Shown piece by piece: positions 8,928 through 16,747 of a stretch of DNA of 64,000 bases. Under the pieces are notes generated by a model. It was not told where the DNA came from. It searched no databases and was given only the letters and a program-made list of their open reading frames with translations. Location of the stretch: positions 194,496 through 258,495 of the forward strand of contig JAUICN010000005.1 in the NCBI GenBank assembly GCA_030427835.1. Reading direction: 5' to 3'. A program made the translations under genes and the position numbers. Origin of the DNA: Polyangia bacterium (GTDB lineage Bacteria; Myxococcota_A; Polyangia; Polyangiales; JAUICN01). The first letter of the stretch is position 1. Each line of letters starts with the position of its first letter.

Positions 8928-10988
8928 ATGTCCACAGTCAACATGGTGTCCACGATTGCCGCCCTACAGAACTACGAGGAGTACAAAGATCTCCATTGGG
9001 AGGGGAGCTTTGAGGAATATCTCGCCCTGGTTCGCGAAAAGCCGCAAATCACCCGCAACTCCTTCCAGCGGCTCTACGAAATGATCGTGAGTTACGGTGA
9101 GGAAGAGTACATCGACAACAAAAAGCGGTTGGTCCGATACCCCTTTTTCAAGGATCCCATCGACAACGGCAAGGACGGTGTATTTGGGCTCGACATTCCG
9201 CTCATGCGCCTGGTGCATGTGCTGCGCGCGGCATCCCAAGGGTACGGCCCTGAAAAGCGCATTATTCTCCTTCACGGCCCCGTGGGATCATCCAAGAGCA
9301 CCATTGCGCGCATGCTCAAAAAGGGGGTGGAACACTACTCACGCACCGCCGCCGGTTCTCTTTACACGTACAGGTGGGTGAACATGGCGGGTACGGGGCT
9401 CCTGGGGGAGCAGGACGAAATGGAATCCCCCATGAACGAGGAGCCGCTACGTCTCATTCCCTCCGAATGGCGTGACCAGGCCGTTCGCGAGTTGGCCCTG
9501 GGCAACGATCGCTACCGGGTAAAGGTGGCCGGCGACGTGAACCCCGCCTGCCGATTTATCTTCAAGGAACTACTCAAGCGCTACGAGGGGGATTGGGGCC
9601 GAGTTATCCAGCAGCACATTCGAGTCAAGCGGCTGCTGCTCAGTGAACGGGATCGGGTGGGCATTGGAACCTTCCAGCCCAAGGACGAAAAAAACCAGGA
9701 TTCCACGGAACTCACCGGAGATATCAACTACCGCAAAATCGCCGAATATGGCTCCGATTCCGATCCCCGTGCTTTCAACTTTGACGGTGAATTCAATGTG
9801 GCCAATCGCGGCATCATCGAGTTTGTGGAGGTGCTTAAGCTCGATGTGGCGTTCCTCTACGACCTGCTTGGTGCCACCCAGGAACACAAGATCAAACCCA
9901 AGAAGTTTGCCCAAACCGACATTGATGAAGTCATCATCGGGCACACCAACGAAGCCGAGTACCGCAAACTGTTGAACAACGAGTTCATGGAAGCCCTACG
10001 GGATCGAACCATCAAAATCGATATTCCGTACATCACCAAGCTTTCGTCCGAAATAAAGATTTACCAAAAAGATTTCAGCACAGAACGGCTCCGTGGAAAA
10101 CACGTGGCCCCGCACACCCTGGAAGTGGCCGCCATGTGGGCCGTGCTTACACGCCTTGAGGAGCCCAAAAAGCACGAGCTCTCGTTGTTGCAAAAAATGA
10201 AGCTCTACAACGGGAAAGTGTTGCCGGGCTTCACCCAGGACAACGTCAAGGAGCTGCGCAAGGAAACCAAGCGGGAAGGGCTTGAAGGCGTGTCTCCGCG
10301 CTACGTGCAGGACAAAATTTCAAACGCACTCGTTCGGGAGGATTCTGGGGGCTACATCAACCCATTCATGGTTCTCAATGAACTCGAAAAGGGCCTCTCT
10401 AACCATTCCCTGATCTCGGCAGACGATGAACGAAAGAAGTACCGTGAGCTCATCGGAGTGGTGAAGGCTGAATACGAAGAGTTGGTGAAGAACGAAGTGC
10501 AGCGCGCCATCAGTGCCGACGAGGACGCGATTGCCAGACTGTGCTCCAACTACGTCGATCACATTCGGGCCGTTACCCTGAAGGAAAAGGTCAGAAATCC
10601 GTACACTGGCAAGGATCAGGAACCCGACGAACGGCTGATGCGTTCCATCGAAGAGAAGATCGATATCACCGAAGCGCGTAAGGAGGATTTCCGCCGTGAG
10701 ATCATGAACTACATCGGTGCCCTTGCCATTGAAGGCAAGAAGTTCGAGTACCACACCAACGATCGGTTGCGTCGGGCCCTGGAAATGAAGCTTTTTGAGG
10801 ACCAGAAGGATTCCATCAAGCTCTCAAGCATTGTCTCCAACGTGGTGGACAAGGAAACCCAAGATAAGATCGACGTCATCAAGAGCCGCATGATCAAACA
10901 CTACGGCTACAACGAAGCATCGGCCACGGACGTACTGAACTTCGTGGCGAGCATCTTTGCCCGGGGTGACATCAAGGAAGAGGGATAG
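8928..10988 (+). CDS. prkA: PrkA family serine protein kinase (AAA-type)
   Basis: A 686-aa PrkA protein (E. coli YeaG type). It has an N-terminal AAA-like ATPase module with P-loop GPVGSSKST at residues 117-125 and a C-terminal kinase-related region. Family members act in the cytosol in stress and stationary-phase or sporulation responses. Full family length and strong conserved segments ([27 protein letters not shown]) support the call. The start ATG 8928 follows GGGAGAG. It is first in a three-gene operon with yeaH (7 bp downstream) and spoVR, an arrangement widely conserved in Proteobacteria. Confidence 0.95.
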
Positions 10989-10995
10989 GCACTCC

Positions 10996-12108
10996 ATGTC
11001 CCTGCGGATCGACCAGGACCATTCCCGGTTTCGGCAGATCGTTCGTGGTCGTATTCGCAAAAACCTCAAGAAGTTCATTTCCACAGGAGAAATCATTGGT
11101 AAGCAGGGCGATGAAAAGGTCTCCATTCCCATTCCGCAGATCGACATCCCTCGATTTCGGTACTCCGACGAGCAGCAGGGCGGCGTAGGCCAGGGTGATG
11201 GTGAGCCCGGGGATGCCATGGGTGAGGGCGAGGGCCAACAGGGAGATGGCTCAGGAAAAGCGGGTGACCAGGAGGGCCAACACGCCCTTGAGGTCGACGT
11301 AGATCTCGAAGAACTGGCGGACATTCTGGGGGAAGAACTGGCCCTTCCCAACATTGAAGACAAGGGCAAGGATGCCCTTGTGGAGAAGAAGGATCGCTAC
11401 GTTGGCATTCGCCCGGTCGGCCCAAACTCCCTGCGGCATTTTAAGCGCACGTTTCGCAATGCGCTCCGCAGGCAAGTGGCGTCTGGAACCTACAATCCCG
11501 CAAACCCTGTGATCATTCCCACCCGTGAAGATATGCGTTACCGGGCCTGGCGTACCGAGGAGGAGCCCGTCACCAACGCGGTGATTCTCTACATGATGGA
11601 CGTCTCCGGATCCATGGGAGACGAACAAAAAGAAATCGTACGGATTGAAACCTTTTGGATCGATACATGGCTCAAACGCCAATACAAGGGTGTGGAAACC
11701 CGGTTCATTACTCACGATGCCGTCGCCCGGGAGGTGGACAGGGAAACCTTTTTTTCCACCAAGGAATCCGGCGGCACGATGATTTCCTCGGCCTATCGAC
11801 TCTGCGCGGAGATGATCGAAAACGACTACCCACCCTCCCAGTGGAACATCTACCCGTTTCATTTTTCGGACGGTGACAACTGGAGCGTCGACGACACCCT
11901 TTCTTGCGTCTCCCTGCTCAAAAACAAGCTCATTCCAGCGAGCAACCAGTTCTCCTACGGGCAGGTGGAGAGCCCCTACGGTTCGGGGCAGTTTCTGAAG
12001 GATCTGAAGGAGCACCTCTCCGACGTGCCCACCCTTGTCACCAGTGAAGTAACCGATCGCGATGACATTATGTCTTCCATCAAAGATTTTCTTGGGGCGG
12101 GGCGATGA
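10996..12108 (+). CDS. yeaH: YeaH/YhbH family protein (DUF444), von Willebrand A-like
   Basis: A 370-aa DUF444 protein. After an N-terminal part rich in basic residues and a Gly/Glu/Asp-rich low-complexity linker (about 58-95), the C-terminal region has the metal-ion-dependent adhesion-site signature [10 protein letters not shown] (Asp202, Ser204, Ser206), as in VWA domains. The start ATG 10996 is 7 bp after the prkA stop; an upstream extension overlapping prkA (10957) does not match the conserved [13 protein letters not shown] opening. It is translationally coupled to spoVR by a 4-nt overlap. It is known as the partner gene of prkA in stress responses; its molecular role is not settled. Confidence 0.93.
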
Positions 12109-13628
12109 AAGGCGCACGGGGCAACCGGCTACCGCCCTACCTGAGCGATGCCCAGGCCCATATTGAGGAACTTGCCCGTTCCCTCGGCCTGGATTTCTTC
12201 ACCACCATCTACGAAATGGTGGGCTACGACCAGATGACCGAGATCGCCAGCTATGGTGGCTTTCCGGTGCGCTACCCCCATTGGCGTTTTGGCATGGACT
12301 ACGAGCGCATGGCCAAGAGTACGGAGTATGGCCTTTCGAAAATCTACGAGTTGGTCATCAACAACAACCCCGCCGTGGCCTACCTGTTGGAGGGCAATAG
12401 CCTGGTCGAACAGAAGCTGGTCATGGCCCACGTGAGCGGGCACGTGGACTTCTTCAAAAACAACTTTGCGTTTCAGACCACCAATCAGGGGATCGACCCG
12501 CGTACGGGAGAATCGATCCGCAAGTGGATCGATACCATGGCCAACCACGGCGCCATCATGCGCAAGTGGATCAACCGGGTGGGGATCGAAGAAGTGGAGC
12601 AGTTCCTCGACCACTGCCTCAGCCTGGAGAACCTGATCGACCCTGAAAACGCCTACGGGATCACTGGGGCCTCCCTTGAGAATCCTGAGGGCCGCAGTTC
12701 AGAGCCAGAACTCCTAAAAGTCGACAAGGCGTACATGGCCCCGTTCATCAATCCTGAGGAGTTCGTGGACTCCCAGAGAAAAAAGGCGAAGGCAGAGAAA
12801 GAAAGGGAACGAAAGCTACCCGAGAAGCCCGAAAGGGACGTGTTGGGATTCCTGATCGAGCACGCACCGCTTGAACCCTGGGAACACGACATTCTCACCA
12901 TCGTACGCCGTGAGGCCTACTACTTCTGGCCACAGATGCAGACCAAGATCATGAACGAGGGCTGGGCGTCCTATTGGCATTCCCACATGATGACCCGGCA
13001 CCTGTGTGATGCGAGCGAGATCGTAGACTACGCGGACCGCAACGCGAGCGTGCTTTCCACCGCGGGCCGACAGCTCAACCCCTACAAGCTAGGTGTGGAG
13101 CTTTATCGCCATATTGAGGAGCGTTGGAACCGCGGTCAGTTTGGGCGGGAATGGGACGATTGCGACAACCTTGACGAACGCCAGGCCTGGAACCGGGAGC
13201 TGGGGCAGGGCCGCGAAAAGATTTTTCAGGTGCGGGGTATCTACAATGATCTTACGTTTATTGACGCTTTTTTAACGCCTGAGTTTGTCCGTGACCAGAA
13301 GCTCTTTGCCTTTGGTTACAACCCGCGCCAGGGCCGCATGGAGGTGGAGAGTCGCACCTTTGACAAGGTCAAAAAGCAGTTGTTGTTCCAGCTTACGAAC
13401 GCTGGAAATCCGTTTATTCGCGTGGTGGATTCCAACCTAAGCAATCGAGGTGAGTTGCAGTTGGTGCACGAGCACCAGGGGGTGGGCCTGGATCAAAAGT
13501 GGGCCAAGGAGGTGCTGGTAGCCCTTCACAGGCTTTGGCGGCGCCCGGTCCAGGTGGAGAGCATTGCAGACGACAAGCCCTGTGCATTGCGCTTCGACGG
13601 GCAAGAGCATACAAATCGCCCCCTCTAG
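12105..13628 (+). CDS. spoVR: SpoVR family protein
   Basis: A 507-aa SpoVR/YcgB family protein of full family length. The segment [13 protein letters not shown] (about residue 285) and the early [20 protein letters not shown] are characteristic. The family is named after a Bacillus cortex-formation gene but occurs widely in non-sporulating bacteria as the third gene after prkA and yeaH. The ATG at 12105 overlaps the yeaH stop as ATGA. Its biochemical role is unknown. The operon context points to a stationary-phase or stress function, not to sporulation. Confidence 0.93.
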
Positions 13629-13697: not shown

Positions 13698-14597
13698 ATG
13701 CATCCATACCTCAAACCCGCTCGTCACGAGGGTTCGATTCCAAGAATTCTGGCCCATTTTACTATTTCGGCACAGCTGTTGTTCAGTTGCACGGAAGGCA
13801 AGCCCCACTCACAACCCATGCAGAGCCACACCCCGCATATGGCCAAGGCACCACCAGAACCAAACGGCGTTCAAACGCCAGATTCGGACTACGCGACGGA
13901 AACCGATGTGCGTCCGTTTCTGGATGCGTTGATTCATCGTCAGTATCCACGTCTGAGAGGCTATTGGTCGAACGGCCGCATTCATGTGGAAACCTTTTCC
14001 GAGTACCCGCGGTTGTTTGCGGCTCGACCAAGTGTGGTCAACAGCGTTCGGTCGGCAAAAGTGCACTACACGGTGTACTACGACCCGAGGAACTTTCAGT
14101 GGATGAACGGGCACCCTCCCATGTCCAAGAAAGCCCTGTGGGGTGTTCTCGCCCATGAATTGGCCCATATCCAAGAATACGTGGGGCAACCCATTTCTTC
14201 GTTGGTGCGTGCTGGCAAAGCTTATGTACGCAACGGACATTCCTTGGCCCGGTACGAGCGTTCCACAGACGTTCGAGCGCTTGTGCATGCCCATCGCTAC
14301 CGAACGCACAATGCCCTTGTGCATGAAAACGTTGCCGAAGGGTTAGTCGCGTTTCGGCACTGGGTAGACGCCCCCGAACGCAACCAAAACAAAAGGGGAA
14401 AGACCCACGAGAAAAAGCGCCAGCTTCGTCGGGAACGTTACCTATTTCAAGAAGAGATAACCGTCATTGACCGTTTGATCCAGGGATACCCAGAACTGTG
14501 GAAGCGGCTCATCGGAGACCCACCCATGAATCTCAAGGAAGCCCAAGCGTTGGCGCAACGCGCCAAGCAACGCGATGAGAGCCCTACGACTGAATAG
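13698..14597 (+). CDS. Putative lipoprotein with HELAH zinc-peptidase motif
   Basis: A protein of about 299 aa. From ATG 13698 the N-terminus has basic residues, a hydrophobic segment and LLFSC (Cys31), a plausible lipobox; a TTG at 13680 is an alternative start. LAHELAHIQEY at about 152-162 is an HExxH zinc motif (His153-Glu154-His157). An ENVAEGL segment downstream might provide the third, glutamate ligand, as in gluzincin-like enzymes; this is inference. The C-terminus is rich in Lys, Arg, Glu and Gln. The last 14 nt overlap the end of the convergent RiPP precursor gene. A role in processing that peptide cannot be excluded, but the opposite orientation argues against an operon. Confidence 0.6.
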   Translation: MHPYLKPARHEGSIPRILAHFTISAQLLFSCTEGKPHSQPMQSHTPHMAKAPPEPNGVQTPDSDYATETDVRPFLDALIHRQYPRLRGYWSNGRIHVETFSEYPRLFAARPSVVNSVRSAKVHYTVYYDPRNFQWMNGHPPMSKKALWGVLAHELAHIQEYVGQPISSLVRAGKAYVRNGHSLARYERSTDVRALVHAHRYRTHNALVHENVAEGLVAFRHWVDAPERNQNKRGKTHEKKRQLRRERYLFQEEITVIDRLIQGYPELWKRLIGDPPMNLKEAQALAQRAKQRDESPTTE

Positions 14598-14787
14598 GCC
14601 CAGTGGCACAGGCGGGCTCGCCGTAGCCCTTGGCCCCGGGATCGGTACAGGTGGTGGCCACAGCCTCAAGGGGCTCGATGGTGAGAATTGCCGGAGCGAC
14701 GTAGGCCTTTTTTGTGCCCCCTGTGGAGGCTAGGGCGCCTTCTTTCCCATTGGAAGCCATGGTCTCTGTGTTGTTCCGTTCAGTCAT
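14584..14787 (-). CDS. Probable RiPP precursor peptide with YxxP leader motif
   Basis: A 67-aa peptide downstream of a radical SAM enzyme and a PqqD-like protein on the same strand. The start ATG 14787 has GGGAGG and AGAGG upstream. Residues 1-25 are hydrophilic and Gly/Thr/Asn-rich with a GG pair at 23-24. Then comes KKAYVAPAIL (26-35), a YxxP motif (Tyr29, Pro32) of the kind that PqqD-like recognition elements bind in lasso and related precursors, then EPLEAVATTC. The C-terminal part (about 46-67) has Cys47, Cys60, Asp, Gly, Pro and Tyr residues and ends GPIQS, and is the likely core. The modification is not predictable from sequence alone. Classification as a RiPP precursor is inference from motif, size and context. 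Confidence 0.72.
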   Translation of the reverse strand: MTERNNTETMASNGKEGALASTGGTKKAYVAPAILTIEPLEAVATTCTDPGAKGYGEPACATGPIQS

Positions 14788-14933
14788 CTCGCCTCTGCCT
14801 CCCAGGTTGTCCAGCGCAGTGTATCCCCTGCTGTGTCACATCTGTCGTATACCCCGTAGTAGGGCCCTAAACCAACTCTCAAACGCACTGTGCTCATATT
14901 ATTCGGTTTTTCCGTATCCAGGTACATGGCGCT

Positions 14934-16094
14934 CTACATGACCCGTAGATGGAGTTTTTCGGATGAGACATTGGGTTTGGCGCCCTTTTCACCCCGGGCT
15001 GCATCCAAACGGTGCTGCGCCGCTGGGTAGATTTGTGTGGCTTTTCCCGAATGCAAATAGGCCGCTCCCGCACAAAATTTCAATGCTCCACCGTGCTCTC
15101 CAAAGCCCGCGAGCCACTTTTTAACCTCTTGAGTCTGGGATCGAACCCCTTGCAGGGCCTCCGAATAGTCCCAGATGCCCGAAAGTGAACTCTCGTGCAG
15201 GTTTCCCACGGGAAGCCGCCATTGCACACAGGGAAATACATTCCCCAACGGGTCCACCGCAATCGAAGAGGACCCCGCTCCACAGGCCTTGGTGACCTTG
15301 GTACCTTTTTGGTTTTGCGGGTCTCCGTTCTGTTGGGCCACGTTCTGTTGGGTCTGGGGGACCTCTACAGCAACCCCCTGCTTACCGGGTTCCTCCACAA
15401 CAGGAGAACTTTTTTCCCGCTCTGCCTTCAGCGCTCGGTAGCGAGCAAGCCCCTCTGCCGAAGCACTCAATCGCATGGGCGACAAATCGCCGTCATCCTT
15501 CGGGCTTACATCGTCGCTGACCGTGAGCGGCAATCCCAGTCCATCGCAGATCGCGTACATGGCGGGCACTTCGTTTTCGTTCCACCGTGTGAGTACCGTG
15601 TTCACACGGATGCGTAACCCCAGCCCCTGAACCGCGCCGAGGTTTTCCAGCAGTCGAGCAAAGCTTCCCTGACGGCGGGTCAGCCGATCATGGGTTTCTG
15701 CACGGGCGCCATGCAAGCTCACCTCAATCACAAACGGGTCCACCTCCTCCTGCAACCGTTCGGCAAGCTTTCGGGTCAGCATGTGTCCATTGGTTTTGAT
15801 GCGAGTTACAAAACCGAGCCTTTTGGCCGCACCACCAATCTCAAAGAAATCAGGGTGCATCAAAGGTTCTCCGCCCGAGAGAATGAGGTTAAATACACCC
15901 CTTTTTGACAAATCTTCCAGCAGATCTAGCCACTGTGGCGTGCTCAAGGGCTTCCCCTTAAGCGACAAATCGTTGTAACAAAAATCGCAGTTCCAATTGC
16001 AGTCGTAAGTCAGCTCAAGAAGGGCCGAGATCAACCGGTTCTCCTCCCAGGATCGATGGATCACATTGGCGAAGGTCAACGGTTCACCCCGCAT
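14934..16094 (-). CDS. Radical SAM/SPASM peptide-modifying enzyme
   Basis: A 386-aa radical SAM protein. TYDCNWNCDFCYNDL carries the CxxxCxxC cluster ligands (Cys32, Cys36, Cys39), followed by LSGGEPLMH, the GGE SAM-binding motif. After a low-complexity Gln/Asn-rich linker (about 245-275) comes a Cys-containing C-terminal region (ACGAG, DPLGNVFPC, FCAGAAYLHSGK) typical of a SPASM domain that binds auxiliary Fe-S clusters in peptide-maturing enzymes. The start ATG 16094 overlaps the pqqD-like gene by 11 nt, indicating coupling. The adjacent precursor suggests that it installs a cross-link or similar change on the 67-aa peptide. An alternative start at 16133 would overlap more. Confidence 0.88.
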   Translation of the reverse strand: MRGEPLTFANVIHRSWEENRLISALLELTYDCNWNCDFCYNDLSLKGKPLSTPQWLDLLEDLSKRGVFNLILSGGEPLMHPDFFEIGGAAKRLGFVTRIKTNGHMLTRKLAERLQEEVDPFVIEVSLHGARAETHDRLTRRQGSFARLLENLGAVQGLGLRIRVNTVLTRWNENEVPAMYAICDGLGLPLTVSDDVSPKDDGDLSPMRLSASAEGLARYRALKAEREKSSPVVEEPGKQGVAVEVPQTQQNVAQQNGDPQNQKGTKVTKACGAGSSSIAVDPLGNVFPCVQWRLPVGNLHESSLSGIWDYSEALQGVRSQTQEVKKWLAGFGEHGGALKFCAGAAYLHSGKATQIYPAAQHRLDAARGEKGAKPNVSSEKLHLRVM

Positions 16095-16443
16095 TCCCGT
16101 TGAACCGTGACCCGGGCACCACATCCACCGCACCCACGTCTACCAGGGACCTCAGATAACGGGTCGTATCTGCCTGCAACACATCCAGATCGGCGTCGTA
16201 TTCATCGGCCAGGCGGGTCGCTATTTCGTCTCCGGTGGTGGGTTGCCGTGTCATCTCCAGCACCCGGGCGCCCAGCTCGTTCACCACCAATACCTCAAGT
16301 CGCCCCTGCAAAATGGCCACCCCCTCGTCCCCAAGGTTGCGAAACCGCGTTTTCTCCCCCATCTGAACCTGCACGTGGGGTGCCACCGGCCGCAGGGTTT
16401 CTCCCCTAACAAACGACACGTTTTGATTCCCTGATTCCGCCAT
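16084..16443 (-). CDS. PqqD-like RiPP recognition element protein
   Basis: A 119-aa protein of the PqqD family. ATG 16443 is preceded by GGGGAGGA at good spacing. The core reads GEKTRFRNLGDEGVAIL, EVLVVNELGARVLEM, then EIATRLADEYDAD and LRSLVDVGAVDVV, the usual order of a small winged-helix PqqD domain (beta hairpin, then helices). Such proteins bind leader peptides and present them to a radical SAM partner. The gene is translationally coupled to that enzyme. A pyrroloquinoline quinone role is unlikely since no other pqq gene is nearby and the precursor is not PqqA-like. Confidence 0.82.
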   Translation of the reverse strand: MAESGNQNVSFVRGETLRPVAPHVQVQMGEKTRFRNLGDEGVAILQGRLEVLVVNELGARVLEMTRQPTTGDEIATRLADEYDADLDVLQADTTRYLRSLVDVGAVDVVPGSRFNGNAG

Positions 16444-16480: not shown

Positions 16481-16747
16481 CTACCGTGAAAAGTAGGTTG
16501 CCCCAACCACCCGTCCATTCACACCCAGGCGGTCGCTCCTGGAAAGCCCGATCCCCTCTGTCCAAAAAGGACACACCTCACCCAACCCCGCTAGCCCCCC
16601 CCACCAGCCCCCCCCAGGGCCAGGCCCTGGAATCATCGACGACACCAGAGTGGGTCCCTCGAGGAAACCAGCCCCCCCAGGGCCAGGCCCTGGAATCATC
16701 GACGACACTGAAGTGTGTCCCTCAAAGAAGGTAAACCATGTTCCCAT
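16481..16747 (-). CDS. Doubtful small reading frame with two 21-residue repeats
   Basis: An 88-codon frame ending 37 bp before the PqqD-like gene on the same strand. It contains the segment SSMIPGPGPGG twice, 21 residues apart, because the underlying DNA is duplicated with a 63-bp spacing. There is no Shine-Dalgarno sequence before ATG 16747, and the differences between the repeats are not biased to synonymous sites. It may be non-coding regulatory DNA that happens to be open. It is listed because repeat-bearing small proteins next to RiPP genes can be precursors. Confidence 0.18.
   Translation of the reverse strand: MGTWFTFFEGHTSVSSMIPGPGPGGAGFLEGPTLVSSMIPGPGPGGGWWGGLAGLGEVCPFWTEGIGLSRSDRLGVNGRVVGATYFSR
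16603..16730. repeat. Two-copy direct repeat carrying 17-bp palindromes upstream of the RiPP genes
   Basis: Units at about 16603-16666 and 16667-16730 share AGGGCCAGGCCCTGGAATC and the following ATCGACGACAC. Each contains the odd-centred palindrome CCAGGGCCAGGCCCTGG (16614-16630 and 16677-16693), whose centres are 63 bp apart, about six helical turns. Both lie upstream of the PqqD-like start in a 325-bp gap (16444-16768) without another convincing gene. No T-tract follows. A pair of operator sites for a dimeric regulator is the simplest functional reading. Confidence 0.7.

Follow-up and report, generated by a model that had tools for sequence, protein, structure and literature searches.

Two kinds of peptide pathway described in the literature are closest to the locus analyzed in this study. 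The linear polyphosphorylated peptides (LPP) of Bacillota are made with a discrete RRE, an HprK-like kinase, an archaeal-type signal peptidase that removes the leader, an NTP transferase, and an MsbA-like exporter, and their leader carries the motif YxxPxVLxHQxIxFETxxS, which, counting Tyr as 1, is cut after T16 and phosphorylated at S19; the peptidase uses Ser29 (PMC13381572). In the paeninodin/pseudomycoidin-type lasso peptides, which also have an RRE, an HprK-like kinase acts on an extremely conserved C-terminal Ser, and an NTP transferase is linked to the hexose added at the phosphorylated Ser (PMC9266682). Neither system has been described with a radical SAM enzyme: the text of the LPP paper, which restricts LPP to Bacillota, does not mention one. 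The radical SAM maturases SkfB, which forms thioethers, and PqqE, which forms C-C links, act on different precursors and have no kinase or signal-peptidase-like partner. Judged from the names of its NCBIfam models (TIGR04248-04251), the SynChlorMet cassette also combines HprK-like, PqqD-like, and radical SAM proteins.

In the current study, we examined a RiPP cassette in a 64,000-nucleotide stretch of DNA from a Polyangia bacterium (the window). An earlier note, made from the sequence alone, had reported three same-strand genes here, and this observation was confirmed. The features, all on the minus strand, are as follows.

14584..14787, minus strand: precursor peptide of 67 aa, ending in GPIQS (start possibly at Met10)
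14692..14703, minus strand: YxxP motif, Tyr29-Pro32, the expected RRE-binding site in the leader
14656..14664, minus strand: Ala42-Val43-Ala44, an AxA box, with predicted leader cleavage after Ala44
14587..14655, minus strand: predicted core, Thr45-Ser67, with Cys47, a single Lys53, Cys60, and the C-terminal Ser67
14934..16094, minus strand: radical SAM peptide maturase of 386 aa
15978..16001, minus strand: CX3CX2C SAM-cluster motif, Cys32/36/39
15072..15284, minus strand: twitch-like auxiliary-cluster residues Cys271 (CX12GX4C), Cys289, and Cys341
16084..16443, minus strand: PqqD-like RRE protein of 119 aa

The PqqD-like gene overlaps the radical SAM gene by 11 nt, and the precursor gene follows after 146 nt, running convergently into the end of the next gene on the plus strand. 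Pfam searches identified PqqD (PF05402, 1.5e-10, above the cut-off), radical SAM (PF04055, 3e-22), and a partial SPASM match (PF13186, 2e-7, over profile positions 1-52 of 67), whereas no Pfam or NCBIfam model matched the peptide. The PqqD domain is the only one above the cut-off in the genome.

Membership in known cofactor and cassette families was examined with the NCBIfam cut-offs and was rejected. The radical SAM enzyme scored far below the cut-offs of TIGR02109 and TIGR03962 (101 vs 381 and 95 vs 265 bits), which does not support a PQQ or mycofactocin identity, and the SynChlorMet models scored far below theirs (ScmC 36 vs 125 and ScmE 87 vs 400 bits).

The earlier note had named the absence of the peptide beside homologous enzymes in related genomes as evidence that would count against a RiPP cassette. 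We therefore looked for it, and the peptide was found conserved next to homologous enzymes in dozens of genomes, far beyond chance. A search of 57 genomes (the window's own and 56 relatives) found close homologues (45-54% identity) in five genomes of the same order, each with a peptide next to the enzyme that has YxxP, EPLEAVA, and two Cys and ends in SS, four of them in GPxSS. Homologues followed in gammaproteobacterial and acidobacterial genomes. With a profile, the family appeared in 7 of 379 sampled genomes of the window's phylum, 44 of 396 of the phylum of the acidobacterial MAG, and 6 of 369 of the class of the gammaproteobacterial MAG, although the more distant of these acidobacterial members scored much lower than the rest. 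The window's enzyme groups with other genomes of its order (support 97/93).

From these loci, 37 distinct precursors were collected. Counting Tyr as 1, Y or W at 1, P at 4, E at 10, E at 13, A at 16, and the first Cys at 19 occur in all 37. The search pattern demanded [Y/W]xxP and A-x-x-C and leaned on an acidic position, and those letters are therefore partly selected; however, the spacing was left free, so that the fixed Tyr-to-Cys distance was not built in, and shuffles give 1.3 of 37. Two divergent acidobacterial peptides (loci L032 and L130) do not fit this register and are not among the 37, and eight radical SAM loci with an RRE (L114-L117, L123, L124, L126, and L128) gave no precursor by motif. 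Between the two Cys there is exactly one Lys in 37 of 37, located 5-10 residues before the second Cys (most often 6), and the last residue is Ser in 36 and Thr in one. None of the Lys, second-Cys-spacing, or C-terminal Ser features was asked for by the pattern.

The comparison with LPP shows the same spacing throughout, namely Y1, P4, hydrophobic residues at 6, 7, and 12, A16 at the predicted cut, and Cys instead of the phosphorylated Ser at 19. Positions 14-16 form an AxA-like signal-peptidase box, with Ala at -1 in 37 of 37 and a small or aliphatic residue at -3. The full LPP leader motif is absent, including its HQ..FET part, since only Y, P, and the hydrophobic positions are shared and E10, E13, A16, and C19 differ.

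Regarding the radical SAM enzyme, six Cys are invariant in 50 of 50 members, namely CX3CX2C, then C271-X12-G284-X4-C289, and Cys341, with no further Cys column. Contrary to the description in the earlier note, the C-terminal part is thus not Cys-rich, having exactly three Cys, and does not carry the full SPASM Cys set. A twitch domain is a truncated SPASM that binds one auxiliary cluster (PMC9012708). Its Cys motif is CX9-15GX4C plus one more Cys, and the enzyme fits this pattern, although the cluster content itself was not measured. The AlphaFold2 model (pLDDT 73) is closest to PqqE, SkfB, SuiB, and, among others, the sactipeptide maturase 5wgg, and the sequence profile is closest to PqqE, SkfB, and, for the C-terminal part, BtrN. 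These data make a peptide-modifying enzyme likely without saying which bond it makes.

In relatives of the same order, the cassette reads S26-like peptidase (an archaeal-type signal-peptidase homologue), HprK-like kinase, PqqD, radical SAM, and precursor, with a convergent NTP_transf_5, in one stretch. The window lacks three of these genes, but they are present in the same genome on another contig, C5, together and in the same relative arrangement: S26-like (L047, the C5 locus, 11679-11263), HprK-like (11266-10274, with the P-loop GHSGAGKST), and convergent NTP_transf_5 (about 9343-10326). C5 matches the window's composition (tetranucleotide r 0.954, against 0.44-0.62 for three relatives), although C5 and contig C30 are joined only by binning. 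Therefore, the cassette appears to have come apart, with its middle three genes now elsewhere, and it only looks compact in the window. The C5 kinase is a long branch that was not placed firmly with its relatives, so the two halves need not share one history, and we do not claim one transfer event. Its identification rests on the P-loop, the conserved His, and LSDD/E, and on a weak model (pLDDT 58) of the homologue from the gammaproteobacterial locus L029, which matches the PEPCK/HprK fold. The signal-peptidase homology is below the curated cut-off (26 vs 52 bits); the S26-like enzymes have Cys at the position of the catalytic Ser in 20 of 21, with HR and D kept.

The four-protein set of LPP, namely the signal-peptidase-like peptidase, RRE, HprK-like kinase, and NTP transferase, is thus present here, over two loci in this genome and in one locus in relatives. 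In contrast to a linear peptide without a ring-forming enzyme, a radical SAM maturase is part of the cassette, although that the product is cyclic is inferred. No exporter was found beside either half among the proteins tested, nor an MsbA-like one among the flanking proteins tested, and since the genome was not searched for the latter, this comparison was left unsettled. Similarly, neither an Asn-synthetase-like lasso cyclase nor a B2 peptidase was seen among the flanking proteins scanned in the window and C5, a result that, without a genome-wide search, does not settle the comparison with lasso peptides. The system is therefore like LPP and paeninodin in logic but a member of neither. What differs is the radical SAM enzyme, the Cys in place of the peptidase's catalytic Ser, and a link to gingipain-family C25 proteases. 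Literature searches for radical SAM with HprK and signal peptidase, or for gingipain with RiPP, returned no such report in the collection of papers searched, leaving aside a 2014 genome-mining survey that contains HPr kinase with radical SAM and RiPP and was not examined.

Concerning the protease, in 30 loci a reading frame (555-1,785 codons, some cut by contig ends) with a Peptidase_C25 domain lies by the cassette. In the 23 of them with a recognized precursor, C25 and precursor are always on the same strand, mostly touching or overlapping, and loci L099 and L105 have a second C25-precursor pair. In the window's order the two are not adjacent except in one genome (G056), but they still go together: C25 is in all seven cassette genomes tested, including the window's (two copies), and in none of six without the cassette, two of which belong to the genus of four cassette carriers. 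Treating genomes as independent, this has p = 1/1716, but they are not independent and only 13 were tested. The C25 domain of the window genome's contig C7 matches PorU, a sortase, and gingipain R2. No precursor-like peptides were found beside the unlinked C25 genes of the window's order, and a substrate fused to the C25 N-terminus was not seen in the loci without a separate precursor. The unlinked C25 proteins of this order (G000, the window genome, contigs C2:6238-7278 and C7:102265-103326, loci L147 and L148; the same in L164-L174) end in a Cys, a hydrophobic stretch, and an Arg-rich tail, like a MYXO-CTERM-type sorting signal, and the C7 protein also has RTX repeats. In L029, an S8 subtilase (281-2248) lies beside the cassette where other loci have C25. 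The adjacency of related cassettes in other phyla to a large secreted gingipain-family protease hints at what the peptide may be for.

Based on this evidence, we consider it fairly likely that the genes form one RiPP pathway split over two loci. In this view, the PqqD-like RRE binds Tyr29-x-x-Pro32 of the leader and presents the precursor to the radical SAM/twitch enzyme, which would crosslink the core, most likely by a thioether from Cys60 (or Cys47) to a nearby carbon, with the invariant Lys53 as the leading candidate partner; no product was analyzed here for the Cys-to-carbon thioether of sactipeptides and ranthipeptides, which needs mass spectrometry. The HprK-like kinase would phosphorylate a Ser, for which the C-terminal Ser67 is the better guess in light of the paeninodin-type peptides, the NTP_transf_5 enzyme may decorate that phosphate, and the signal-peptidase-like enzyme on C5, which has Cys at the position of the usual catalytic Ser, would cut after Ala44. 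The invariant single Lys may be the crosslink partner of Cys60, bait for a Lys/Arg-type protease, or both, and the data do not discriminate between these options. The analysis itself demonstrates the gene content, conservation, register, split loci, and co-occurrence, whereas each reaction and its order, the role of the peptide, and any action on the C25 protease are inferred without biochemistry. The interpretation given in the earlier note was therefore partly supported: the RiPP cassette, the YxxP leader bound by a PqqD-type RRE, and the exclusion of PQQ are supported, the compact three-gene pathway and the SPASM assignment are not supported, and its undefined modification can be narrowed to a Cys/Lys core plus a probable Ser phosphorylation.

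Other explanations were weighed against this one. That the trio works alone, with the C5 genes serving something else, seems unlikely: the acidobacterial loci L129 and L131-L136 do show only RRE, radical SAM, and precursor (plus C25 in most) within 6 kb, but those genomes also carry HprK-like genes, in three cases 7-12 kb away, and the C5 trio has the same gene set and relative order as the flanks of the intact cassette in relatives. It is possible, though doubtful, that the enzyme makes no thioether but a C-C link at Lys, an epimerization, or another change, with Cys47 and Cys60 forming a disulfide, since PqqE is the nearest solved relative by sequence and fold, PqqE and SuiB make C-C links, and the single Lys is invariant; against this, the two Cys are as invariant as the Lys, and the thioether-forming SkfB is the second-best match. 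A PQQ- or mycofactocin-like redox cofactor, suggested only by the weak scores above, is very unlikely, because there is no conserved Glu-Tyr or C-terminal Val-Tyr core, and a signal-peptidase-like gene and C25 protease partners do not fit.

A more speculative reading, which we regard as unlikely but not excluded, is that the mature peptide is a ribosomally made regulator of secreted C25 proteases, a crosslinked loop that shows one Lys between two Cys to a Lys/Arg-type protease as an inhibitor or maturation factor, acting in trans on one to three such proteases per genome. The mirror version would be a sortase-like role of C25 acting on the peptide, since its best PDB match is PorU.

The cassette joins two separately known chemistries, radical SAM peptide crosslinking and HprK-type peptide phosphorylation with signal-peptidase leader removal, in one RiPP family found in at least three phyla. 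It predicts a leader peptidase that may use Cys in a signal-peptidase fold, and it ties a RiPP to a secreted protease family, which gives a testable function where most orphan RiPPs have none. It also warns that a cassette that looks minimal may have its other genes elsewhere in the genome.

Related arrangements were seen in other loci. In Nitrospira (L033, L034, and L035), a related but richer cassette has three radical SAM genes, HprK-like, NTP_transf_5, a Ser-type S26 peptidase (L033 and L034), and a Cys-rich YxxP peptide in a different register (YSPPVLYEVPLDHEQAILTAC), and in L120 and L121 two PqqD-like genes lie in tandem in one cassette. In the window, a promoter and terminator scan gave no promoter-like site and terminators near chance. 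A near-identical direct repeat of about 35 bp containing the palindrome GGGCCAGGCCC lies at 16610-16710, upstream of the PqqD gene. A prkA - DUF444 (yhbH-like) - spoVR operon, an ordinary conserved set, lies just upstream at window positions 8928-13628.
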